Positions 1-12,551 of a DNA stretch of 64,000 nucleotides are shown here, one piece after another. A program made the translations under genes and the position numbers. The DNA comes from Modestobacter sp. L9-4 (lineage in GTDB: Bacteria > Actinomycetota > Actinomycetes > Mycobacteriales > Geodermatophilaceae), in assembly GCF_019112525.1 (NCBI RefSeq), contig NZ_CP077800.1, positions 3,658,001-3,722,000 on the forward strand. Reading direction: 5' to 3'. The notes under the pieces are model-generated. The model had not been told where the DNA came from. It did not search any database and saw only the letters and a program-made list of their open reading frames with translations. Position 1 is the first letter of the stretch. Each line of letters starts with the position of its first letter.

Positions 1-2
1 CC

Positions 3-758
3 CAGGCCCGCGACCTGGTGCCCGGCGACCCGGCCGCCGCCGAGTCGATCGCCGTCGCGCTGCACGAGGTCATCGACGAGTTGGTGGTGCCCGCCGCCAT
101 CTCCTACGTCGACGTCCTGCTGTCCCGCGTCAGCGACGCGAACCGCGACGAGCGCCGCCGGGTGGCCCGCGACCTGCACGACCACACCAGCCACGGCATC
201 GGCGCGGCCATGCAGGGCCTGGACCTGGCGCTGCACCTGCTCGAGACCGGCCAGCCGCTGGACCCCACCCGGCTGCGGGCGACCCGGCAGCTGCTGCTGG
301 AGACCCTCAACGACGTCCGCAGCCTGGCCACCCGGCTGCGCGACATGGTCGGCGTCCGCACGCTGGCCCAGGCGCTGCAGGAGTACCTGGACTTCACCGT
401 GCCCATCGGCCTGGCGGCGACGCTGACCGAGGAGGGCGAGGAGGCGGTCGTGCTGCCCTCGCACGTCAAGGAGGAGTGCTACCTGATCGTGCGCGAGGCC
501 ATCCGCAACTCCCTCGTCCACGCCCGCGGGGCGACCCGGCTGACGGTGACCCTCCGGGTCGCCGAGGCGCTGCTCACCGCGGTGGTGGAGGACGACGGCG
601 CCGGCTTCGACCCGGCGACGGTCGACACCACCCGCACGGTGGGGCTGGCCTCGCTGCGCGAGCGGGCGCAGGGGCTGGGCGGCGTCGCCGCGATCGACGC
701 CGGCCCCGGCGGTGTGCGGCTGACCCTCACCGTGCCGCTCACGGTGGCCCTGTCGTGA
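3..758 (+). CDS. NarL/DegS-type sensor histidine kinase, 5' end outside window
   Basis: C-terminal 251 residues of a two-component sensor kinase; the reading frame is open to the window edge, so the GTG at 18 need not be the start and the sensory part is missing. The dimerisation box (RDLHDHTSH, phospho-acceptor His of DLHD at about residue 54 counted from the GTG) is the HisKA_3 type. It is followed by a HATPase_c domain with the N box (REAIRNSLVHA), G1 box (EDDGAGFD) and G2 box (GLASLRERAQGLGG). Such kinases pair with LuxR-type regulators, and the next gene is one, starting in a GTGA overlap with this stop. The signal sensed cannot be inferred from this fragment. Confidence 0.9.
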   Translation, partial: QARDLVPGDPAAAESIAVALHEVIDELVVPAAISYVDVLLSRVSDANRDERRRVARDLHDHTSHGIGAAMQGLDLALHLLETGQPLDPTRLRATRQLLLETLNDVRSLATRLRDMVGVRTLAQALQEYLDFTVPIGLAATLTEEGEEAVVLPSHVKEECYLIVREAIRNSLVHARGATRLTVTLRVAEALLTAVVEDDGAGFDPATVDTTRTVGLASLRERAQGLGGVAAIDAGPGGVRLTLTVPLTVALS

Positions 759-1414
759 CCAGCTCGGTGCGCCGGCTGAGCGTGGTCCTCGTCGACGACC
801 ACCGGCTCTTCCGCGAGAGCCTGGGGGCGCTGCTCGCCGTGCACGAGGGCATCGAGGTGGTCGCCGAGGGCTCGAACGGCGAGGAGGCCGTGCGGCTGGC
901 CCGCCAGCACCGCCCCGACGTGGTGCTGCTCGACGTCGAGATGCCCGGGCAGTCGGTGCTCACCTCGCTGGTGGAGATCCGCGGGGCGTCGCCGTCGACG
1001 AAGGTCGTCGTCCTCACCATGCACGAGAACACCCCGCTGGCCCGGCAGCTGCTGCTGCGCGGGGCCTCGGCCTACCTGATCAAGACCATCGGGCACCACG
1101 AGCTGGTCGCGGCCATCCGGGCCAGCACCGAGCACGAGCAGGACCTGGTGACGCTGTCGGTGTCCCGCAGCGGGCTGGCCGGGCTCACCTCACCGGTGGC
1201 GCCGATGCTGTCCGACCGGGAGGTGGAGGTGCTCGCCCTGGTCGCCCGGGCCTGCTCCAACCTCGCCATCGCCACCGAGCTGCGGATCAGCGAGGGCACC
1301 GTGAAGCGGCACCTGAGCAACATCAACAGCAAGCTCGGGTCGACGTCCCGGCTGGACGCCGTGCGCCGCGCGACCCGCGCCCGGCTGCTGCCGCCCGGCC
1401 TCCAGGACGACTGA
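755..1414 (+). CDS. NarL/FixJ-family response regulator
   Basis: 219 residues. Receiver domain at about 8-125 with acidic pair D14/D15, phospho-acceptor D60 (LLDVEMP), the conserved Thr of VLTM and Lys of YLIKT. A LuxR-type helix-turn-helix follows (LSDREVEVLALVARACSNLA, then SEGTVKRHLSNI). The GTG at 755 overlaps the kinase stop by four bases, so the pair is translationally coupled and the kinase is the evident partner. It should act as a phosphorylation-dependent DNA-binding regulator; the target genes are not visible here. A longer reading upstream of 755 in this frame is only a shadow of the kinase gene. Confidence 0.93.
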   Translation: MTSSVRRLSVVLVDDHRLFRESLGALLAVHEGIEVVAEGSNGEEAVRLARQHRPDVVLLDVEMPGQSVLTSLVEIRGASPSTKVVVLTMHENTPLARQLLLRGASAYLIKTIGHHELVAAIRASTEHEQDLVTLSVSRSGLAGLTSPVAPMLSDREVEVLALVARACSNLAIATELRISEGTVKRHLSNINSKLGSTSRLDAVRRATRARLLPPGLQDD

Positions 1415-1415
1415 A

Positions 1416-1474
1416 GAAGGACCTCGCTGCCCCCCACCACTCGCGAGCTCGCGGCCGGCCCCTGCAGCGAGGCC
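1416..1474. terminator. Long hairpin between convergent genes
   Basis: CCTCGCTGC (1422-1430) pairs perfectly with GCAGCGAGG (1464-1472), and a palindrome CGCGAGCTCGCG lies in the loop at 1442-1453. It sits between the convergent response regulator and membrane-protein genes, where a bidirectional terminator is expected. It resembles the hairpin at 5793-5848 read on the other strand. Confidence 0.6.
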
Positions 1475-1487
1475 GGAGGGCGAGGAC

Positions 1488-2093
1488 TCAGCGGAGCGGG
1501 TGGCCGAGGGCGTCGGCGACGGCGGAGGGGTCGCGGACCCAGACGGTGAAGGCCCGGGCCGTCTCCCCGTCGTCGGCCAGGTGGGCCACGCTGATCCGCC
1601 GCCGGCCCGGCCACCAGCCGCCCCGGTGGCGCGCCTTCGGCCACCCGGCCGGCGCGGACCCGAGGACGACGTCGGTGACCAGCACGAGCGGGACGACGCC
1701 GAAGGACGACGTCTGGCGCAGCCCGGCGATGTCGGTGGACACCGCCCGGTCGCCCACGGTGAACCGCCCGGTGGACACGACCAGCACCAGCAGGCCTAGC
1801 CCGACCGCCACCGGTGCCTCGTCGGCGACCGCCGCGCCGCCGTCGCGCCAGCCGAGGAACCCCAGCCAGACGGCGACGGCCAGCACGGTCAGCCCGATCA
1901 CCAGCGGGGAGGCCAGGTCGTACTGCCAGTACCGCAGCGGCCGCGGCACCACCGTGACGTGCCGCTTGGGCCCGCGCCCGGCGAGGTAGCCGTAGCTGCC
2001 GGTCTGGGTGCGGTGCTCCTCGCGGGCCCGCGCCGCCTGGACCGCCAGGGGCTCACCGTCGCTGCGTCGGGACCGGGGTGGCATGCCGACCAT
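1488..2093 (-). CDS. Two-helix membrane protein of unknown function
   Basis: 201 residues, family not recognised. A basic N-terminus (MPPRSRRSDG) is followed by two hydrophobic stretches at about 61-81 and 93-111, then a cytoplasm-like tail of about 90 residues rich in Trp and Arg (GWWPGRRR) that ends near VWVRDPSAVADALGHPLR. The tail has the strand-rich, Arg/Trp-rich look of small PH-like or DUF3093-like domains of actinobacterial membrane proteins, but this is only an impression. It lies divergent to era with 62 bp between the starts. The starting ATG could be the one four codons further in (MPPRS); both are in frame and neither has a clear ribosome site. Confidence 0.75.
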   Translation of the reverse strand: MVGMPPRSRRSDGEPLAVQAARAREEHRTQTGSYGYLAGRGPKRHVTVVPRPLRYWQYDLASPLVIGLTVLAVAVWLGFLGWRDGGAAVADEAPVAVGLGLLVLVVSTGRFTVGDRAVSTDIAGLRQTSSFGVVPLVLVTDVVLGSAPAGWPKARHRGGWWPGRRRISVAHLADDGETARAFTVWVRDPSAVADALGHPLR

Positions 2094-2155
2094 GATCGCA
2101 GGGCCGCTCGGGCGGACCGGGGGAACCGTCGGTGCGCAGTGGGAGACTGGACGGC

Positions 2156-3073
2156 GTGACCCCTCCCGAGCAGCCCGTCCACCGCAGCGGGTTCGTCGCC
2201 CTCGTCGGGCGTCCCAACGCCGGGAAGACCACGCTCACCAACGCCCTGGTCGGGGAGAAGGTCGGCATCGTCAGCAACCGGCCGCAGACCACCCGGCACG
2301 CCATCCGCGGCGTCGTCCACCGTCCGGCCGGTCAGCTCGTGCTCGTCGACACCCCCGGTCTGCACAAGCCCAAGAGCCTGCTCGGGCAGCGGCTCAACGA
2401 CGTCGTCCGCGACACCCTCGCCGACGTCGACGTCATCGTGTTCTGCATCCCGGCCGACCAGCCGGTGGGCACCGGTGACGCCTTCATCGCCCGGCAGCTG
2501 AAGAACGTCACGACCCCGGTGGTCCTGGTGGTCACCAAGACCGACGCGGCGGGCAAGAAGGCGATCACCCAGCAGCTGATCGCGGCCAGCGAGCTGGTCG
2601 ACGCGGTGGAGGTCGTCCCGGTCAGCGCCGTGGCCGGCGACCAGGTCGAGCTGCTGGCCGACATCCTGATCAAGATGCTCCCCGAGGGCCCGCCGTTGTA
2701 CCCGGAGGAGCAGACCACCGACGAGGACGTCGAGCGGCAGATCGCCGAGCTGGTGCGCGAGGCGGCGCTGGAGAAGGTCCGTCAGGAGGTCCCGCACTCC
2801 CTGGCCGTCAGCGTCGAGGAGATCATCCGCAAGCCCGACCCCCGCGACGCGAGCGCGGTGTTCACCGAGGTCCACGCGCTGCTGCACGTCGAGCGCGCCA
2901 GCCAGAAGCCGATGCTGCTGGGCAAGGGCGGCAACATCATCAAGGCCATCGGCAGCGAGGCCCGGGTCGGGCTGGAGACGCTGCTCGGCGGCCGGGTGCA
3001 CCTGGACCTGCACGTCACGGTGCTGGGGGAGTGGCAGGACGACCCGAAGAAGCTCAACCGGCTGGGCTACTGA
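2156..3073 (+). CDS. era: GTPase Era
   Basis: 305 residues, the usual Era length. Era binds the 3' end of 16S rRNA during assembly of the 30S subunit. The GTPase domain shows G1 GRPNAGKTT (18-26), G3 DTPGLHKPK and G4 TKTD. The C-terminal KH domain follows with the GKGGNIIKAIG loop and ends in KKLNRLGY. I chose GTG 2156 because GGGAG at 2141-2145 is ten bases upstream and the protein then begins a few residues before the GTPase fold; a GTG at 2132 is in frame but puts that site inside the gene. In related actinobacteria era is followed within a gene or two by recO; here two foreign-looking genes intervene. Confidence 0.97.
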   Translation: MTPPEQPVHRSGFVALVGRPNAGKTTLTNALVGEKVGIVSNRPQTTRHAIRGVVHRPAGQLVLVDTPGLHKPKSLLGQRLNDVVRDTLADVDVIVFCIPADQPVGTGDAFIARQLKNVTTPVVLVVTKTDAAGKKAITQQLIAASELVDAVEVVPVSAVAGDQVELLADILIKMLPEGPPLYPEEQTTDEDVERQIAELVREAALEKVRQEVPHSLAVSVEEIIRKPDPRDASAVFTEVHALLHVERASQKPMLLGKGGNIIKAIGSEARVGLETLLGGRVHLDLHVTVLGEWQDDPKKLNRLGY

Positions 3074-3115
3074 TGGCCACACGATGGAACAACGGTACGT
3101 GCGCTTGATGGCGAC

Positions 3116-3121
3116 TAAGGT
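3116..3121 (+). promoter_or_regulatory. Candidate -10 element for the TIR gene
   Basis: TAAGGT lies six bases before the ATG at 3128, the spacing of leaderless actinobacterial transcripts. No convincing -35 hexamer was found. No ribosome-binding site precedes the ATG, which fits leaderless expression independent of era. Confidence 0.35.
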
Positions 3122-3127
3122 CGACTC

Positions 3128-3880
3128 ATGACTCAGGCGGATCCCCAAGCAGGGCTGTCTGCGCTGGGTCGCGTCTTCTTGAGCTACAGCAGGGTCGATC
3201 AGGACGTGGCATACCGTCTCGTCGAAGTGTTGCGAATTCGTGGGGCCTCGGTTTTTTCGGATAGCTCGATACGTCCTGGCGATGAATGGCAATCCGAACT
3301 CGTCAATGGGATCGAGTCGGCGGACGTGGTGGTCGCACTAGTATCCCGTAAATCTCTGGACTCGGACTGGCAGCGCGTAGAACTATCGCTTGCACTGGAG
3401 CGGGCCTACTCAGACGCTTCATTCCACTTGCTGCCAGTTCTGCTGGACGACGTCGATCCCCCGTACTCCCTCAGCTCCATTCAGTATTTGCGCGTTTCGC
3501 AGGGTGTTGGACCGGACGTCGCTGCCGTCGAGGTGGCCGACGCGCTTCAACGCATGGGTCGTCAGATGGTTCGACAGATGCCGAATTGGCCAGAAGTGCC
3601 TGGTTCGCTCGGCGCAGAGTGGGTTCGCGAGCGCGAGCGGACACTGATTGAGGAATCTCGACTTCGTCGTCGGCTGGGTGCCTACTTGGCTGGAGTTTCG
3701 GCTCTCTTCTTGGCCGTCCTGGTGTGTTCTCTTCTCGTCGTACCACTTGACTCAAGCTTTCTCCAGGCGTTGGTTACTGGCCTCTCTGGAGTCCTCGGCC
3801 TGGTGGTTGGTTCCTATGGGACTCATAGGACCCGACGGCTAGTCGAAAAGGGTTACGACGAGGAGGGAGAGGGGCGTTGA
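3128..3880 (+). CDS. TIR-domain protein with two C-terminal membrane helices
   Basis: 250 residues. An N-terminal TIR domain (about 14-145) opens with VFLSYSRVDQDVAYRL, has the SSIRPGDEW box, and carries WxxxE (W81, E85), the position of the catalytic Glu in NAD-cleaving TIR enzymes. A charged helical linker (about 163-182) leads to two hydrophobic segments at about 183-206 and 210-230 and a basic/acidic tail. In this family TIR domains either hydrolyse NAD+ or make cyclic ADP-ribose signals, mostly in anti-phage immunity; a role here is inference. Base use differs sharply from neighbours: 32 of 60 bases at 3241-3300 are G or C against 46 of 60 at 2941-3000 in era. The next gene starts in its stop codon, so the two form one unit. 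Confidence 0.88.
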   Translation: MTQADPQAGLSALGRVFLSYSRVDQDVAYRLVEVLRIRGASVFSDSSIRPGDEWQSELVNGIESADVVVALVSRKSLDSDWQRVELSLALERAYSDASFHLLPVLLDDVDPPYSLSSIQYLRVSQGVGPDVAAVEVADALQRMGRQMVRQMPNWPEVPGSLGAEWVRERERTLIEESRLRRRLGAYLAGVSALFLAVLVCSLLVVPLDSSFLQALVTGLSGVLGLVVGSYGTHRTRRLVEKGYDEEGEGR

Positions 3881-4230
3881 GTTCGCCTGAGCCTTCTCAG
3901 ACTGCACCCAGGACGGCCCGTGCAGTTGAACTGCAGCGAGCCCTCGAAGAGCTCCGACAGGAGCAGGCCACATTTGAACAGCACAAGAAGCAGGCTGAGC
4001 AGTGGTTCAAACTGCGTCTTGTCATGGGTGGCGTGGCGGCGCTGATGCTGCCGGCTGTCTTTGCTGTCTGCTGCATTTTAATCTTTGATGCGGATCAGGA
4101 TTCCACGATTCGGCAACTGGCTGCGGCCGCACTACTTACCGACGTGTTGGGACTCGCTGTCTCGATTTATAAGGTCCTCCTCTCGTCAGGGTCAGACGTT
4201 CCGCTCGGTCCCGTGACGAAGCTGAAGTGA
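3877..4230 (+). CDS. Coiled-coil, two-helix small membrane protein
   Basis: 117 residues, no family recognised. Residues about 12-45 form a charged amphipathic helix (RALEELRQEQATFEQHKKQ), probably a coiled coil, followed by two membrane segments at about 47-70 and 79-104 and a short tail. The TTG start at 3877 overlaps the TGA of the TIR gene and has a consensus AGGAGG at 3861-3866 ten bases upstream, which settles the start. Both proteins carry two membrane helices, one with a TIR domain and the other with a coiled coil, so a membrane complex is plausible but unproven. Base composition is low like that of the TIR gene, unlike recO beyond it. Confidence 0.8.
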   Translation: MSSPEPSQTAPRTARAVELQRALEELRQEQATFEQHKKQAEQWFKLRLVMGGVAALMLPAVFAVCCILIFDADQDSTIRQLAAAALLTDVLGLAVSIYKVLLSSGSDVPLGPVTKLK

Positions 4231-4291
4231 TTGACATAGACAACTCTTGTTGGATGAGAAATGACCGACCCGTCGCTATCGAGGGGGTAGC

Positions 4292-5038
4292 GTGAGCGGC
4301 ACCCCGCAGGCGCTCTACCGCGACGAGGGCGTGGTGCTGCGCACCCAGAAGCTCGGCGAGGCCGACCGGATCGTCACCGTGCTCACCCGGCGCACCGGCA
4401 AGGTCCGGGCCGTCGCCAAGGGCGTGCGGCGCACCAAGAGCAAGTTCGGTGCCCGGCTCGAGCCGTTCAGCCACGTCGACCTGCAGCTGTACACCGGCCG
4501 CAACCTCGACATCGTCAGCCAGGCGGAGTCGATCCGCTCCTACGGCACCGAGATCGTCTCCGACTACCGGGCCTACACGGCCGGCACCGCGGTGCTCGAG
4601 ACCGCCGACCGGCTGACGGTGGAGGAGAAGGAGCCGTCGCTGCGGATGTTCCTGCTCGTCGTCGGCGCGCTGCGCACGCTGGCCGAGGGGCAGAAGCCGG
4701 CGCCGCTGGTGCTCGACGCCTTCCTGCTGCGGGCGATGTCGGTGGCCGGCTGGGAGCCCGCGCTGGGCGACTGCGCCCGCTGCGGCGAGGCCGGCCCGCA
4801 CCGGCACTTCTCCGTCCCCGCCGGCGGGACGGTCTGCCCGTCCTGCCGGCCCACCGGCTCGGCGATGCCGAGCCCGGTCACCATCGAACTGTTGGAGGCG
4901 CTGTTGTCCGGCGACTGGGTCCAGGCCGAGAACAGCCTGACCGTCAACCGCAAGGAGGGCAGCGGCCTGGTCGCGGCCCTGCTGCAGTGGCACCTGGAGC
5001 GTGGCCTGCGCTCGTTGCCGCTGGTGGACCGCACGTGA
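4292..5038 (+). CDS. recO: DNA repair protein RecO
   Basis: 248 residues. RecO works with RecF and RecR to load RecA on gapped DNA. The N-terminal OB-fold begins [19 protein letters not shown], and the C-terminal part holds a four-Cys zinc cluster (CARC and CPSC). The GTG start at 4292 follows GAGGGGG by a short spacer. A TTGACA at 4231 with a poor -10 is a possible own promoter created or left after insertion of the upstream cassette. The stop overlaps the uppS start as GTGA, an arrangement conserved in actinobacteria. Confidence 0.95.
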
Positions 5039-5790
5039 CCCGCGCACCCCAGCCGCACCCCTCCGGTGCGCGCCCGCCGGCGATCCCGGCCGACAAGGTG
5101 CCGCACCACGTGGCGATCGTGATGGACGGCAACGGCCGCTGGGCCAAGCAGCAGGGTCTGCCGCGCACCGCCGGGCACGCGGCCGGGGAGGCCTCGCTGT
5201 TCGACTGCGTCGAGGGCGCCATCGAGCTCGGGGTGAAGGCGATCAGCGCCTACGCCTTCTCCACCGAGAACTGGAAGCGCAGCCCCGACGAGGTCCGGTT
5301 CCTGATGGGCTTCAACCGTGACGTCATCCGCCGCCGGCGCGACGAGATGCACGAGCTCGGGGTGCGGGTGCGCTGGGCCGGTCGCCGTCCGCGGCTGTGG
5401 GGCAGCGTGATCAAGGAGCTCGAGGTCGCCGAGGAGCTCACCAAGGACAACGACGTCCTGACCCTGACCATGTGCGTGAACTACGGCGGCCGGGCTGAGA
5501 TCGCTGACGCCGCCGCGGCCATCGCCCGCGAGGTCGCCGCCGGGCGGATCAAGCCGGACAAGGTCGACGAGGAGACCGTCGCCCGGTTCCTCGACGAGCC
5601 CGACATGCCCGACGTCGACCTGTTCGTGCGCAGCTCGGGGGAGAACCGCACCAGCAACTTCCTGATCTGGCAGGCGGCCTACGCCGAGCTGGTCTTCCTG
5701 GACACGCTGTGGCCGGACTTCGACCGCCGGCACCTGTGGCAGGCCTGCGAGGAGTACGCCAGCCGCCAGCGGAGGTTCGGCAGCGCCTGA
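5035..5790 (+). CDS. uppS: Isoprenyl transferase (cis-polyprenyl diphosphate synthase)
   Basis: 251 residues. Condenses isopentenyl diphosphate in the cis configuration to make the polyprenyl carrier lipid for cell-wall precursors. The catalytic motif [10 protein letters not shown] is present with D31, N33 and R35; the FSTENWKR and [10 protein letters not shown] substrate motifs are also visible. The GTG at 5035 overlaps the recO stop; a start at 4987 would add a non-conserved segment copied from recO. The mycobacterial gene next to recO makes decaprenyl diphosphate, so that is the likely product; short-chain Z-farnesyl synthesis is the alternative. Confidence 0.95.
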
Positions 5791-5792
5791 AC

Positions 5793-5848
5793 GGCCCCGT
5801 CCCAGAGGCTCGCCCCGAGCGTGCGAGGGGTGAGGTGGGACGGGGTCC
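5793..5848. terminator. Bidirectional terminator hairpin uppS / chemoreceptor
   Basis: GGCCCCGTCCCA (5793-5804) pairs with TGGGACGGGGTCC (5836-5848) with one mismatch, between convergent genes. On the - strand it aligns with the hairpin at 1416-1474: both begin GAAGGACC, share a CTCGC..GCTCG core and end in GGCC, while the stems differ by compensating changes. Confidence 0.75.
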
Positions 5849-5853
5849 TTCGT

Positions 5854-7827
5854 CTAGGGGAGCTCGAAGCGGGAGACCAGGCCGCGCAGTTCGTCGGTGA
5901 TCTGGGCGAGTGCGGCGGCGGTCTCCCGGGTCGACTCGGTGGCCTGCGCGGTGGAGCGGGTCGCGGCGGTGACCGTGCGGACGTCGGCGCTGACGCCCTC
6001 GGTGCCGGTGGCCGCCTGGGCCACGTTGCGGCTCATCTCCGCCGTCGTCGCGCTCTGCTCCTCCACCGCCGAGGCGATGGTCTGCTGGTGGTTGTTGACC
6101 TGCTCGACGATCGAGGCGATCTCGGCGATCGAGGCGGCCGCCCCGGCGGTGTCGGCCTGGATGGCCTCGACCCGGCGGGTGATGTCCTCGGTGGCCTTCT
6201 GCGTCTCCTGCGCCAGCTCCTTGACCTCGTTGGCCACGACGGCGAAGCCCTTGCCCGCCTCGCCGGCGCGGGCGGCCTCGATGGTGGCGTTGAGCGCCAG
6301 CAGGTTGGTCTGCTCCGCGATCGAGGTGATCGCCGCGACGACGTCCCCGATCTGCCGGGACGACTCACCCAGCCGGGCGACCTGCGCGGTGGTCTCCTGC
6401 GCGGCGGCCACCGCGGAGGCGCCCACCCGGGCGGCCTCGGACGTCGAGTGGGCGATCTCCCGGATGGAGACGCCCATCTGCTCGGCACCCGCGGCGACGG
6501 TGCGCACGTTGTCGCTGACCAGCTCGGTGGCGGCCTGGGCGGCACCGGCCACCTCGGTGCCGCGGGTGGCGTCCCGCGCCACGTCGTCGGACAGCCCGCG
6601 CAGCCGGTCCGACGCCGTGGACAGGTCGCCGGTGCGGTCGCGCAGCCCGCCGAGTGCGCCGCCCATGTTCTCCAGCGACCGGTTGAGCGCGACGGCCAGC
6701 GTGCGCAGCTCGTCGGTGCCGGACTCCGGCAGCCGCGGGCGCAGGTCCCCGTCGGCGACCTGCTCGAGCGCGGAGACGGCGTGGTCGAGCGGGCGGGTGA
6801 GGGCGCGGGCCACCAGCAGGGCGATCACCGCGACCACGGCCGCGACGACCACCGCGACCAGCAGCACGGCCTGCAGCAGCGAGGAGGCAGGGGCGACCGC
6901 GTCGCTGAGGTGCTCGCTGAGCACGATGCCCCAGCCGTAGCCGGCGAAGCCCAGCGCGCCCTGGGACGCCGACCAGCCGCGCACCTGCTCCGTGTCCTCG
7001 CCGGTGCCGTCGGGGAGCTCGTCGGTGCCGTGCCCGGACCCACCGGCGGCCACCGCCGCGGCGGCGGGGGAGCCGGCCGCGGCGAGGTCCAGTGACTGCT
7101 CCGCGCCCGGGCCGACCAGGACGACGCCGTCCTTGCGCAGCATCTGCGCGGTGGCGGTGACGCCGCGGGTCTGCAGCCCGGTGACCTGCTCGTCCATGAT
7201 CTGACCGATCACCCGGGGCACCGAGGCCCAGTTGACCCACAGCCGCTGCGCCCGGCCGTCGGGGCCGTAGACGGGGGCGGCGAACACCAACGTGGCGTCG
7301 TCCCGGCCGGTCGCCGCGCTGACCAGCGGGTCGACCTCCGGGTCCTGCACGTAGGTCTGCCCGGGCGGCAGGGCGAGTGCCTGGGCGAACCACGGGCGGG
7401 TGGACAGGTCGGCGCCGAGGTACTGCCCCGGGTCGACCGCCGCGGCGTCCCCGGTCACGCTGTTGCCGCCGACCACGCGGCCGTTGAGGTCGACGACCAG
7501 CAGCAGGTCGTAGATGACGTAGCTCTTGCTGTAGAAGTCCGCGGCCTCGGCGACCGTGGCCGGCGGGGCGGCGGCGTCGGGGTTGAACGCGAAGGCCTGC
7601 ACGTCGCCGTAGCGCTCGAAGAGATTGCGGTCGATCTTGTCGATCGTGGACCGGGCCTCGCTCTGCAGCAGCTCGCCGGAGTTGCGCACCCAGTCGCCCT
7701 CGCTCCGCTGCCAGGCGAAGACGCCCAGGCCGGCGAGGGGGAGGGTGCTGCAGGCGAGCACGACCAGCACCAGCAGGACGCGCAGCGAGCGCAGGTGCAG
7801 GGCGGCCGTCAGGCGGTGGACGGTCAT
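5854..7827 (-). CDS. Methyl-accepting chemotaxis protein with dCache-like sensor
   Basis: 657 residues. TM1 at about 17-38, a periplasmic double-Cache-like region at about 40-312 (with WFAQAL and YVQDPEVDPL typical of Cache sensors), TM2 at about 319-341, a HAMP domain at about 342-395, then the long signalling helix pair. The hairpin tip IAEQTNLLALNATIEAARAG that binds CheA and CheW is intact. The C-terminus ends FELP with no CheR-tethering pentapeptide. No che or flagellar gene lies in the window, so partner and output are unknown. It would sense a small extracellular ligand. The gene is convergent to uppS and single. Confidence 0.93.
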   Translation of the reverse strand: MTVHRLTAALHLRSLRVLLVLVVLACSTLPLAGLGVFAWQRSEGDWVRNSGELLQSEARSTIDKIDRNLFERYGDVQAFAFNPDAAAPPATVAEAADFYSKSYVIYDLLLVVDLNGRVVGGNSVTGDAAAVDPGQYLGADLSTRPWFAQALALPPGQTYVQDPEVDPLVSAATGRDDATLVFAAPVYGPDGRAQRLWVNWASVPRVIGQIMDEQVTGLQTRGVTATAQMLRKDGVVLVGPGAEQSLDLAAAGSPAAAAVAAGGSGHGTDELPDGTGEDTEQVRGWSASQGALGFAGYGWGIVLSEHLSDAVAPASSLLQAVLLVAVVVAAVVAVIALLVARALTRPLDHAVSALEQVADGDLRPRLPESGTDELRTLAVALNRSLENMGGALGGLRDRTGDLSTASDRLRGLSDDVARDATRGTEVAGAAQAATELVSDNVRTVAAGAEQMGVSIREIAHSTSEAARVGASAVAAAQETTAQVARLGESSRQIGDVVAAITSIAEQTNLLALNATIEAARAGEAGKGFAVVANEVKELAQETQKATEDITRRVEAIQADTAGAAASIAEIASIVEQVNNHQQTIASAVEEQSATTAEMSRNVAQAATGTEGVSADVRTVTAATRSTAQATESTRETAAALAQITDELRGLVSRFELP

Positions 7828-7976
7828 CTGTCGGGCCTCTCGGACGGCACGGCGCCCGGCGGGCTGCCGGCGCAGGTGTGCTCCTCACAGATCGGCAGTG
7901 CACGACCGGATCGGCACCAGTACTCCTGCCTGACCTGCGCGTTCTCCGTCCGGAGGTGTTCCGGAACGGGCCCGGG

Positions 7977-8498
7977 TCAGCCCCGCTCGGCGACCTCGAC
8001 TGTCCGGCGGAGCGCCTCGAGGTCGTGGTCCAGCTGCGCCCGCAGCGCCGGCCGGGCGGGGGTGGCGGCCAGCTGCTCGAGCGAGGTCTCGACGGCGCGC
8101 ACGAGCTGCCGGGCCGCGGCGACCCGGGCGTCGTCGCCGTCGGCGGTGTGCAGCCGCAGCTCCCAGGCCCGCACCTCCAGCCGCGCTGCGGTGGCCGTGA
8201 GGACGTCGTCCACGCCCGAGGCCCGGCCCGGCTCCCGGGCCGCGCGCGCGACCTCCACCGACAGCTCGTCGAGGCCCCGGTCGAGGTCGGCGCGGTAGGC
8301 GGCCCACGCGTCGGCGTCGGCCTGCACGCAGCGCTCGTGCACCCGGCGCAGGCGGTCGCGCAGCGGCGCCAGGACCCCGCGGACGGCGCGGGCGCTCGCC
8401 GGGTGGTCGCGGCACAGGCCCGCGGTGACCCGGGCCAGCCGCTGGTCGACGACCGACGGGCGGGTCGTGGGGGCATCGGCCGTGTCGGACGCGGTCAT
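7977..8498 (-). CDS. All-helical protein of unknown function
   Basis: 173 residues, no family recognised. The protein is rich in Ala, Arg, Leu, Glu and Asp with no predicted membrane segment or signal peptide; heptad-like stretches (QLVRAVETSLEQLAATPARP) suggest a helical bundle. It lies 149 bp upstream of the chemoreceptor on the same strand and divergent to glyS. Other frames over this stretch give Arg/Pro-rich products typical of high-GC shadow frames, whereas this one has balanced composition and a normal end, so I take it as the real gene. Confidence 0.6.
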   Translation of the reverse strand: MTASDTADAPTTRPSVVDQRLARVTAGLCRDHPASARAVRGVLAPLRDRLRRVHERCVQADADAWAAYRADLDRGLDELSVEVARAAREPGRASGVDDVLTATAARLEVRAWELRLHTADGDDARVAAARQLVRAVETSLEQLAATPARPALRAQLDHDLEALRRTVEVAERG

Positions 8499-8645
8499 GC
8501 GCCGGACGGTAGGGGCGCAGGCCGGAGGTGCTCCACCGGCCGGGGATGAACACGTGGTGGCCGGTGGGGTCGGCCGGGGAACGGCCCGGCGAGGCCGACT
8601 AACGTCAGGAGCTCACCCGCCGACCGCCAGCCGGATGGAGCCTCC

Positions 8646-10061
<1,416 letters not shown>

Positions 10062-10064
10062 GGC

Positions 10065-10103
10065 GGAGTGGATCCGTCGCGGTCACCGCGACGGATCCAC
10101 TCC
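10065..10103. terminator. Perfect 39-nt palindrome downstream of glyS
   Basis: 19 bases (10065-10083) pair perfectly with 10085-10103 around one central C at 10084, beginning GGAGTGGATCCGTCGCGGT. It starts three bases after the glyS stop, before the dusB promoter. Terminator is the likely role; a loop of one base means the RNA hairpin must open a few pairs. Confidence 0.75.
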
Positions 10104-10147
10104 ACCCGCCCGCTCGGCTGTGGTCCCGGGCACACAGCCCGGGCACC

Positions 10148-10153
10148 TACCCT
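10148..10153 (+). promoter_or_regulatory. Candidate -10 of dusB (leaderless)
   Basis: TACCCT lies seven bases before the GTG at 10161, with no ribosome site in between, the layout of leaderless actinobacterial transcripts. Confidence 0.45.
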
Positions 10154-10160
10154 GGACGAC

Positions 10161-11321
10161 GTGACCACGACCCTCGAGCGGACGACGGCGCTGCCGGCGC
10201 TGCAGCTGGGGAAGCTGACCGTGGACCCGGCGGTGGTGCTCGCGCCGATGGCCGGCATCACCGGGCCGGCGTTCCGCACGCTGTGCCGGGAGTTCGGGGC
10301 TGGCCTCTACGTCTGCGAGATGATCACCACCCGCGCGCTGGTGGAGCGCAACGAGAAGACGCTGCGGATGGTGCGGGCCACCCCCGACGAGGCCGACGCG
10401 TTCTCCGTGCAGCTCTACGGCGTCGACCCGGCCACCGTCGGTCGCGCGGTGGAGATGCTGGTCGACGAGCAGGTGGCCGGCACCCGCCCGGCGCACATCG
10501 ACCTCAACTTCGGCTGCCCGGTGCCCAAGGTGACCCGCAAGGGCGGTGGCTCGGCGCTGCCGTGGCGCCGCGTGCTGTTCGGCAACATCGTCCGGGCCGC
10601 GGTGGCTGCCGCCGGCGACGTCCCGGTGACGGTGAAGACCCGCATCGGCATCGACCCCGAGCACACCACCTACCTCGACGCCGGCCGGATCGCCCAGGAC
10701 GCCGGTGCCGCCGCGATCACCCTGCACGGGCGCACCGCCGACCAGCTCTACAGCGGCACCGCCGACTGGGCGCCCATCGCCAAGCTCGTCGAGACCATCG
10801 ACATCCCGGTGCTCGGCAACGGCGACCTGTGGGAGGCCGACGACGCGCTGCGGATGGTGGCCGAGACCGGCTGCGCCGGCGTGGTCGTGGGCCGCGGGTG
10901 CCTGGGCCGGCCGTGGCTGTTCGCCGACCTGGCCGCAGCCTTCGCCGGGTCGGCGCAGCGCACGCTGCCGAGCTTCCGGCAGGTCGCCGAGGTCATGCAC
11001 CGGCACGCCACGCTGCTGGTCGCCGAGCACGGCGAGGAGCCCTACGGCTGTGCGGACTTCCGCAAGCACGTCGCCTGGTACCTCAAGGGCTTCGCCGTGG
11101 GCTCCGACACCCGCCGCGCGCTGGCCATGGTCAGCAGCCTCGACGAGCTGGCCGGGCTGCTGGCCGGCATCGAGGACCAGCCCTACCCCGAGACCGTGCT
11201 CGGCGAGCCCCGCGGACGGACGACGTCGGCCCGGCCGGTGTCGCTGCCCGAAGGCTGGCTGGCCGACCGCGACGACCCCCGCCCGCCGGCCGGCGCCGAG
11301 CTCCTGGTGGGTGGCGGATGA
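10161..11321 (+). CDS. dusB: tRNA-dihydrouridine synthase
   Basis: 386 residues. FMN enzyme reducing uridines in the tRNA D-loop. TIM-barrel with VVLAPMAGITGPAFR at the N-terminus, catalytic C119 in NFGCP, the VTVKTRIG and TLHGRTADQLYSG motifs and the phosphate-binding GNGDLWEADD and GVVVGRGCLGRPW. The C-terminal about 90 residues form the helical tRNA-binding domain. GTG 10161 was chosen because it is preceded by a -10-like element and the upstream in-frame stretch is the glyS palindrome region. Confidence 0.94.
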   Translation: MTTTLERTTALPALQLGKLTVDPAVVLAPMAGITGPAFRTLCREFGAGLYVCEMITTRALVERNEKTLRMVRATPDEADAFSVQLYGVDPATVGRAVEMLVDEQVAGTRPAHIDLNFGCPVPKVTRKGGGSALPWRRVLFGNIVRAAVAAAGDVPVTVKTRIGIDPEHTTYLDAGRIAQDAGAAAITLHGRTADQLYSGTADWAPIAKLVETIDIPVLGNGDLWEADDALRMVAETGCAGVVVGRGCLGRPWLFADLAAAFAGSAQRTLPSFRQVAEVMHRHATLLVAEHGEEPYGCADFRKHVAWYLKGFAVGSDTRRALAMVSSLDELAGLLAGIEDQPYPETVLGEPRGRTTSARPVSLPEGWLADRDDPRPPAGAELLVGGG

Positions 11322-11403
11322 CCCCCGTCGCGGCCACGACGGTCGAGCGAGCATCGCAGGGAGCGCCAGCGACCGAGGAGCGGAACGAGACCGGAGGCGA
11401 CAC

Positions 11404-11862
11404 GTGAGCGCCGGACCGTTCCTCTACGACGACGGCCCCGCACCCCTGCACACGGGCGCGCCGCGCCAGCGCAACGGCCTGATCATCGGCCTGCTCGGTG
11501 GCACGGTGGTCTTCTCCGTGGCCATGGTCGTCCTGATGACCCTGTGGAGCGGCAACGGCGCCGACCAGTCCCGCCAGGTCGCCACCGTCTTCACCTCCGC
11601 GCTGTCCCAGGGGGACCTCACCACCTCCTACGCGCTGATCTGCGACGACGTGCGGGCCGCGGTGCCCCCCGACCAGCTGGCCGCGCAGTACCTGCACCCC
11701 GGCGTCCCGCAGGTGACCGGGGCGGAGTCCAGCGAGTACGAGGGCTCACCTGCCGAGCTCATCACGGTGCGCTGGGACGACGCGGGCTCGGTCACCACGA
11801 CCGTGCTGACCCTGGTCCCCGAGGGTGGCACCAAGGTCTGCGGGACCACCGCTGCGAGCTGA
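11404..11862 (+). CDS. Membrane-anchored extracytoplasmic protein of unknown function
   Basis: 152 residues. A short cytoplasmic N-terminus (about 1-22), one membrane helix at about 24-46 (GLIIGLLGGTVVFSVAMVVL) and an outer domain of about 100 residues resembling the small NTF2-like (DUF4878-type) domains: QVATVFTSALSQGDLTTSYALICDD followed by strands ending in two Cys (ICDD and KVCG) that could form a disulfide. The GTG at 11404 has GGAGG at 11393-11397. Function unknown; the fold comparison is from memory. Confidence 0.75.
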   Translation: MSAGPFLYDDGPAPLHTGAPRQRNGLIIGLLGGTVVFSVAMVVLMTLWSGNGADQSRQVATVFTSALSQGDLTTSYALICDDVRAAVPPDQLAAQYLHPGVPQVTGAESSEYEGSPAELITVRWDDAGSVTTTVLTLVPEGGTKVCGTTAAS

Positions 11863-11921
11863 CCGGCGGGCCGTCCCCAGCGGCTCCCCGGTCCGTCGTC
11901 GCCGCGTGGTACCCATGACGC

Positions 11922-12551
11922 GTGGCAGCGTTGACGGGGCGGTTGGTCGTGCGGGTGGTGGGTGCGGCGGTGACGTCGGTGCTGCTGCTCACCGGGGCCA
12001 CCGGGCTGGCCATCTGGTGGACGGCGCGGCAGGACGACCGGCCCCCGTCCGACGCGCTCGTGGTGCTCGGCTCCGCGCAGTACAACGGCGTCCCGTCGTC
12101 GATCTTCGAGGCCCGGCTGGAGCACGCGCTGGCGCTGTGGCGTGAGGGTGTCGCGCCGGTGGTGGTGACCGTGGGCGGCCGGGCCGAGGGCGACGAGTAC
12201 AGCGAGGCCGAGGCCGGCCGGCAGTACCTGCTGGACGCCGGCATACCGGCGGACGCGCTGCTCGCCGTCCAGGAGGGCGAGGACACCCTGGAGAGCATGC
12301 GGGCGGTCGCCGGCACCTTCGACGAGCGCGGCTGGCGCACCGCCGTCCTGGTGACCGACCCGTGGCACGCCATGCGCGCGCAGAAGATGGCCGAGGACGC
12401 CGGCATGGTGGCGACCAGCTCGCCGACCCGGCAGGGGCCGGCCGTGCAGACGCGCACCACGCAGCTGAAGTACATCGTGCGGGAGACGGCCGCCTACCTG
12501 CTCTACCGCGCGACCGGCGAGAGCGTCGCCGGGGCGCCGGGCATCGGCTGA
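11922..12551 (+). CDS. YdcF/SanA-like DUF218 protein
   Basis: 209 residues. An N-terminal membrane helix (about 12-33) anchors a DUF218 domain: DALVVLGSAQYNG, a conserved Arg/Glu surface and the TVGGRAEGDEYSEAEAGRQY, GEDTLESM and VTDPWHAMRAQ motifs. Family members act in envelope polysaccharide metabolism or vancomycin resistance, with biochemical activity unclear. Likely outside the membrane. The GTG start gives a normal signal anchor. It stands eleven bases ahead of the next gene, so the two may be co-transcribed. Confidence 0.85.
   Translation: MAALTGRLVVRVVGAAVTSVLLLTGATGLAIWWTARQDDRPPSDALVVLGSAQYNGVPSSIFEARLEHALALWREGVAPVVVTVGGRAEGDEYSEAEAGRQYLLDAGIPADALLAVQEGEDTLESMRAVAGTFDERGWRTAVLVTDPWHAMRAQKMAEDAGMVATSSPTRQGPAVQTRTTQLKYIVRETAAYLLYRATGESVAGAPGIG

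Follow-up and report, generated by a model that had tools for sequence, protein, structure and literature searches.

Evidence for a conserved pair of a membrane TIR gene and a small two-helix gene, a candidate immune module between era and recO in Modestobacter

What occupies the unusually wide gap between the core genes era and recO in Modestobacter sp. L9-4, and what might its two genes do together? Bacteria, plants and animals all employ TIR domains as enzymes of immunity, and in the known bacterial systems the TIR protein is mostly soluble. In the window, by which we mean the whole stretch of 64,000 nucleotides analysed here, the segment 3074–4291 spans the entire distance from the era stop codon (3073) to the recO start codon (4292), boundaries that the original prediction had placed correctly, and carries two ORFs on the plus strand (Table 1). 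Its G+C content is 58.0%; the window as a whole reaches 73.7%, and the flanking genes era and recO reach 70.5% and 73.0%, respectively. The spacing of the two flanking genes was compared across 23 genomes of the genus, the window's own included, with G020 left out for its incomplete locus. In the 21 relatives readable at both genes, 17–113 nt separate the era stop from a fixed RecO motif, as against 1239 nt in the window. The 1.2-kb segment is an insert that is absent from these 21 relatives. No direct repeat of 7–12 bp is common to both insert edges, and a promoter scan of the locus with the sigma-70 consensus found none.

Table 1. Features of the era–recO locus, in window coordinates, and of the long partner genes, in coordinates of the named loci
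Feature	Position	Strand	Basis or remark
era GTPase gene	2132..3073	+	Left flank, core gene; ORF and sequence
Inserted accessory segment	3074..4291	+	58.0% G+C; era–recO spacing
TIR-2TM gene, 250 aa	3128..3880	+	Pfam TIR_2, AlphaFold2, Foldseek
TIR domain, residues 16–126	3173..3505	+	Pfam TIR_2, E 4.8e-25
WxxxE motif, W81 to E85	3368..3382	+	Sequence; pair alignment
Membrane hairpin of the TIR protein, hydrophobic segments 187–205 and 210–228	3686..3811	+	Hydropathy, AlphaFold2 helices
Purine-rich stretch inside the TIR gene, probable ribosome-binding site of the small gene	3857..3876	+	Sequence
Small charged-helix and 2TM gene, 117 aa, TTG start	3877..4230	+	22 distinct loci, AlphaFold2
TTGA start/stop overlap of TIR and small gene, 4 bp	3877..3880	+	Sequence
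Second membrane helix of the small protein, residues 76–103	4102..4185	+	AlphaFold2, alignment
C-terminal L-x-P-V-T motif of the small protein	4204..4218	+	Alignment
recO gene	4292..5038	+	Right flank, core gene
Genes of about 1345 aa	L058:955-4992; L060:946-4995; L061:1021-5061		Each followed by a small 2TM gene

The upstream gene encodes a TIR protein with a membrane hairpin at its C-terminal end. The AlphaFold2 model (9 sequences, mean pLDDT 78) comprises a TIR fold followed by long helices at residues 159–204 and 210–249, and all 50 Foldseek matches listed for it are TIR-containing chains, plant RUN1, SARM1, SPARTA TIR-APAZ and AbTir among them. The model aligns with AbTir (7uxu), an NADase, at a TM-score of 0.76 by target length. 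The original prediction had described a TIR protein with intact W81/E85 and two C-terminal membrane helices; the same residues are read here in a protein matched by TIR_2 at 4.8e-25, and the helices are borne out by hydropathy (187–205 and 210–228) and by the AlphaFold2 model, with a very short outer loop in the hairpin. Across the 11 gene pairs described below, in a TIR-2TM alignment that is shallow, the catalytic Glu of WxxxE is present in all 11 and the Trp in 8. Immune NAD cleavage is known for the TIR enzyme family. The fold and the catalytic Glu are consistent with an NAD-cleaving TIR, and the protein would be expected to share this activity.

The downstream gene begins within the TIR gene. 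The overlap noted in the original prediction is a 4-bp TTGA, and a purine-rich stretch lies just upstream of it within the TIR gene. For the 117-residue product the AlphaFold2 model (21 sequences, mean pLDDT 81.9) gives a helix at residues 10–70, a short turn and a second helix at 76–103, and hydropathy places hydrophobic segments at 52–70 and 84–102, in agreement with the two membrane helices that had been proposed. A coiled coil had been proposed as well: what the AlphaFold2 model has there is a short helix, rich in charged residues, that runs without a break into the first membrane helix (helix 10–70). The heptad-like stripe is weak, with L19, A22, L26 and F33 only, and a coiled coil is no more than plausible. 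In the second membrane helix, D89 is D or E in 21 of the 22 small proteins and G92 is kept in 21, while P112 is found in all 22; these three positions lie outside the patterns used in our scan, whereas the conservation of E24, L26–Q28, F33 and W43 was partly selected by them. The acidic residue within the membrane helix hints at a role in a pore or in packing.

Over the 11 pairs, the mean pairwise identity of the small protein is 43% for residues 10–105 and 40% for residues 47–105, which lie outside the scan patterns. The TIR domain averages 31%, and the TIR protein after residue 126 averages 17%. By these alignments, the small proteins form a separate family that is conserved more strongly than the TIR partner. 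The pairwise identities of the two proteins correlate at 0.35 (11 pairs), a value that says little about joint divergence. Fold searches with the small-protein model returned only common helical arrangements (best Foldseek E 0.31 against the PDB and 0.31 against viral structures; best VIA-align Z 7.2). The membrane half of the TIR protein and the small protein are alike in layout, and hhalign places 94 columns of the two in register with a probability of 60–62%, compared with 4% and 9% for reversed controls; the TIR profile also weakly matches the small proteins of Chloroflexota (best 8.2e-4). Common descent of the two is not supported, the hhalign score being equalled in 4 of 60 local column shuffles.

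The two genes recur together well beyond this genome. Small-gene loci were collected from a species-genome collection (19 loci), from viral contigs (1), from the window and from genome G277, giving 22 distinct loci, with L064 being the locus of genome G1066; the species-genome scan was built on an alignment of the small proteins of the window, G277 and G1066, and its patterns required one particular segment of the small protein to be present. A TIR-2TM gene lies directly upstream in 11 of the 22 (the window, L033, L046, L049, L053, L055, L056, L057, L059, L064 and L065), and in all 11 pairs the genes overlap by 1–14 bp, the start codon having been picked among candidates at some loci. According to the listed taxonomy, with the window and G277 assigned by kinship, the paired loci belong to Actinomycetota, Pseudomonadota, Planctomycetota, Thermodesulfobacteriota, Myxococcota and Gemmatimonadota, and one lies on a phage contig. 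Because homologues keep the same arrangement, sequence comparison shows both ORFs to be genuine genes; chance or a local accident is ruled out by the 22 small-gene loci and the 11 pairs.

Within each lineage, by comparison, the small gene is rare. Among 196 relatives from genus to order, the own genome included, it is present only in the window's genome. With the small protein as query, 396 phylum genomes gave four matches at E 0.01: the window's own gene, one in G277 (1.6e-11) and two weak matches at 0.0019 and 0.0095. In G277 a TIR-2TM gene lies directly upstream of the small gene with a 4-bp overlap. The 186 genomes of G277's family hold one strong match and four others at 0.001–0.007. The class-wide search (394 genomes) added G1066 (2.4e-17), likewise paired, and a weak match (3.1e-4) in an unrelated long frame; in the order of G1066 the small gene occurs in 1 of 35 genomes. 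All three strong matches of these whole-genome searches that started from the small gene thus carry the TIR gene, and no such pair was seen at the four weak small-gene matches inspected (L034, L035, L037 and L043) out of seven, L038–L040 having been left out.

Searches that started from the TIR gene lead to a similar picture. With the TIR-2TM profile, scored for seven candidates per genome in the 394 genomes of the class, the full-length matches among those listed (reaching position 239–243 of 244) were in G000, G277 and G1066, the three genomes with the small gene, which are rows of the profile and match by construction. Every other match listed for this profile ended by position 141, inside the TIR part. 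Whether the small gene is missing beside most homologues of the TIR gene was the point on which the original prediction had staked the pair, and the answer depends on which homologues are counted: it is present at three of the four full-length TIR-2TM relatives among the matches listed, which speaks for the pair, and beside none of 56 other TIR loci checked, each over about 3.3 kb. For full-length relatives the prediction of adjacency therefore stands. The fourth, L004 (G098, minus strand), which is one of the 56, is a TIR-2TM homologue aligned over profile positions 1–232 (E 2.8e-30) with no small gene nearby; it has roughly 80 aa extra after the hairpin and may represent a single-gene version of the module.

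Signs of mobility come from the surroundings of some copies. Searches of 50,697 phage and 72,556 plasmid records did not recover the small gene, the TIR protein has no plasmid match at 1e-5, and searches of the phage records with TIR proteins gave partial TIR-domain matches only, in 3 records, with one search giving none. Among viral contigs, a two-row alignment and the window TIR protein were without match, and a third scan returned one locus, L065. There the pair sits between tail genes: a large gene with an M15 peptidase domain precedes it, and one with tail-tip and gp53-like tail-fibre domains follows; the full TIR frame of L065 is without an ATG, GTG or TTG start. Near the G277 pair, at distances of up to about 2 kb, lie genes for an integrase-domain protein and for a phage capsid. 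Genes for pSAM2-type RepSA and FtsK-like proteins are typical of actinomycete integrative elements, and both lie within about 7 kb of the pair in G1066 (Frankia). Several pairs lie among apparent core genes, with no other defence gene noticed when the neighbours were viewed by eye. Taken together, the sequence comparisons support a genuine two-gene module that is conserved and frequently located in mobile surroundings.

The small gene is also found with other partners. At three alphaproteobacterial loci (L058, L060 and L061), a gene of 1345–1349 aa, with 41–55% mutual identity, lies upstream and overlaps the small gene by 4 bp in each, an alternative start in L060 giving 1 bp. Pfam and PADLOC scans covered the proteins of L058 and L060, with L061 left out. 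Pfam matched HTH_3 in both, and Mrr_cat and HEAT_2 in L058; the nSTAND and AAA_16 matches in the two lie below the curated cut-offs, nSTAND_NTPase5 reaching 33.6 bits against 34 in L058. PADLOC 2023 matches were weak and fell mostly in the HTH region. The domain matches suggest an HTH-nuclease-STAND-like protein, of which the STAND-like part rests on these Pfam scores below cut-off, and the long gene and its small neighbour are possibly a separate defence system. In the small-protein tree, in which 14 of 19 inner branches are open, the three proteins with a STAND-like partner are grouped (support 98/99) and species order is not followed.

A different version, which looks chromosomal and not defensive, occurs in Chloroflexota, where the small protein carries a C-terminal extension at six loci (L047, L048, L050, L051, L052 and L063). 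A DnaJ-like_C11_C (DNAJC11-type) match was found in 3 of 18 scanned small proteins, a set that held three of the six Chloroflexota. At five Anaerolineae loci a 397-aa gene follows downstream, and in four of them a gene that is methyltransferase-like by eye precedes. At L054 and L062 the small gene has no recognised partner, and the TIR profile found nothing there; an Eco57I-type methylase is encoded some 1.5 kb from L054. The homologue at L062:4986-5315, from a Nocardia MAG, is near long genes that look phage-structural by eye, and one of these long neighbours, scanned against Pfam, gave no match. The small protein is thus not TIR-specific, as it is found with a STAND-like partner, with a DNAJC11-C-like extension or without a recognisable partner.

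Is the pair a known system? Defence profiles were searched, as the original prediction had proposed, and no searched profile library names it. In Pfam, PADLOC 2023, PHROGs and NCBIfam 2026 the small protein has weak, scattered matches. The PADLOC '2TM Effector' profiles match the window protein at 0.012 and, among 18 members, reach 0.0018 at best, in three of them; CARF_m9-CARF_TM matches two of the 18 (0.046 at best) and tm_4 one (0.0049). Pfam DUF2721 gives the window protein 20.5 bits against a cut-off of 28.3 and is matched in 2 of 18 members, and nine further Pfam families each appear in one of the 18. PHROG 1544 matches 1 of 21 members (8.1e-4), as do, in NCBIfam, ZorA_4 (0.0015), EssB (0.0021), SLATT_1 (0.0062) and MAG1210 (0.0073). 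On the TIR side, the matches of the PADLOC ThsB profiles are confined to the TIR part (best 5.2e-9) and are surpassed by SAVED_TIR at 1e-12, and NCBIfam ThcB4 gives the window TIR protein 46.7 bits against a cut-off of 220.

The TIR protein of Thoeris is soluble, and the Thoeris II effector has two membrane helices. In Thoeris II, the macrodomain of a membrane-disrupting effector binds His-ADPR, and through it the TIR product acts on the effector (PMC12948488). As may be the case for the window pair, a TIR gene works there with a membrane effector; the Thoeris II effector, however, contains a macrodomain, and none was found in the window small protein. No SIR2-SLOG or macrodomain match was given by Pfam for this protein and 17 relatives, and none was seen by eye among the ORFs of window positions 1–12000. 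Pairs of TIR proteins with 2TM SLATT proteins, also in phages, were predicted by Aravind and colleagues (PMC9503650, PMC7159879) and resemble the window pair in setting a TIR gene beside a small 2TM protein. SLATT membership was rejected: no Pfam SLATT match was obtained at 0.01 in 18 members, and hhalign against four SLATT_1 proteins gave probabilities of 0.9% and 0.7%. The SLATT_1 proteins examined extend well beyond their TM hairpin, whereas in the window small protein the last helix is followed by 14 residues.

A set of TIR and transmembrane genes from phage AC1 goes by the name Rst_2TM_1TM_TIR in DefenseFinder. Three such genes of this P2-like phage protected E. coli C (Rousset et al. 2022; PMC9122126), and the name Rst_2TM appears once in PMC11291487. 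By description, the phage-borne AC1 set is like the window pair in that a TIR protein adjoins transmembrane proteins; it differs in having three genes where the window module has two, again by description and not by sequence. TIR proteins of four pairs gave no match in any phage record named P2-like. The S-2TM-beta effectors CBASS Cap15 and Panoptes OptE also belong to two-gene operons in which a 2TM protein acts on the membrane (PMC12657218). They contain a beta-barrel nucleotide-binding domain, whereas the small-protein model is all-helical, and the window pair, flanked by era and recO, has no nucleotidyltransferase or mCpol beside it. No description of the pair was found in the passages and abstracts covered, PMC8195603 and PMC7075850 included, in a literature set without preprints and with few subscription journals. 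The module is therefore a variant of a known theme of TIR plus membrane protein, represented by Thoeris II, TIR-SLATT and, compared by description only, AC1.

We lean, somewhat beyond even, towards a two-gene TIR immune module that is embedded in the membrane, has been transferred horizontally and most likely acts in abortive-infection defence against phages. The rarity of the pair, its absence from the phage and plasmid records, its position among apparent core genes at several loci and the lack of a small gene at L004 weigh against this. This reading of a cell-stopping module follows from the scattered occurrence, the mobile surroundings of some pairs, the short overlapping genes, the TIR family and the 2TM partner shared with a nuclease-STAND-like protein; the defence role, the cleavage of NAD and the assignment of the cell-stopping protein are inferred. 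In the proposed mechanism, both proteins would be made from one message and assemble together as hairpins in the inner membrane, with both ends in the cytoplasm (judged by eye from the charges) and almost nothing outside. Since there is no outer domain for sensing, the phage-induced trigger would probably lie in the membrane or cytoplasm, where it would cluster the complex. Clustered TIR domains would pair, E85 would cleave NAD+, and the cell would be stopped by NAD loss or by the opening of the small hairpin. We favour a role of the small protein as a membrane-perturbing or gating partner over that of a dedicated TIR inhibitor, because it is better conserved, keeps an acidic residue within its second membrane helix and is reused behind an unrelated STAND-like gene. 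The small hairpin is best read as an exchangeable membrane partner of a membrane TIR immune module. A bolder version, in which it is an interchangeable effector attached through the same kind of gene overlap to at least two unrelated front ends, membrane TIR and HTH-nuclease-STAND-like, and in which it forms with the TIR protein a mixed complex gated by TIR clustering with the acidic residue lining a pore, seems to us rather doubtful.

Two alternatives divide the labour within the pair differently. The TIR protein might be the sole killer, by NAD depletion, with the small protein silencing or scaffolding it in the manner of an antitoxin; translational coupling with the small gene in second place and the like layout of the two membrane halves suit such a regulator. 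Yet conservation is higher in the small protein than in the TIR protein, even outside the scan patterns, a STAND-like protein serves as its partner at other loci, and L054 and L062 have no recognised partner gene; we regard this role as possible but unlikely. The Trp of WxxxE in AbTir is needed to make cyclic ADPR. This bears on a Thoeris-like scheme, in which the small 2TM protein, as effector, is opened by a soluble signal that the TIR protein derives from NAD. The WxxxE motif of the window TIR protein fits it, and the combination of TIR with a membrane protein has been either established or predicted elsewhere (PMC12948488, PMC9503650, PMC9122126). However, the motif Trp is missing in 3 of 11 TIR proteins, the 18 small proteins scanned hold no convincing ligand-binding domain, and a diffusible signal would need no membrane anchor such as this TIR protein has; we hold this scheme to be a little less likely still.

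That the pair has no part in defence appears improbable. It could be an accessory of phages or other elements, as in superinfection exclusion, or a device for membrane-stress or envelope signalling, and both the L065 pair between phage tail genes and the Chloroflexota DNAJC11-C-like version, with one gene setting in five Anaerolineae loci, point that way. A scattered occurrence (1 of 196 relatives, 1 of 35 genomes in the order of G1066 and one strong match in the 186 of the family of G277) fits conflict systems better, as does the swap with a nuclease-STAND-like gene. If the preferred immune reading is true, a membrane TIR protein with a tiny hairpin partner would be among the simplest TIR immune modules, and one membrane partner common to TIR and STAND-like front ends would mean that bacterial immunity reuses a part across sensors.

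The system is genetically small, with two short genes, one catalytic residue and one acidic membrane-helix residue. Two of the pairs are followed immediately by genes (L056:5430-6191 and L059:5446-6366) whose proteins match PF05014 (nucleoside 2-deoxyribosyltransferase) below the cut-off.
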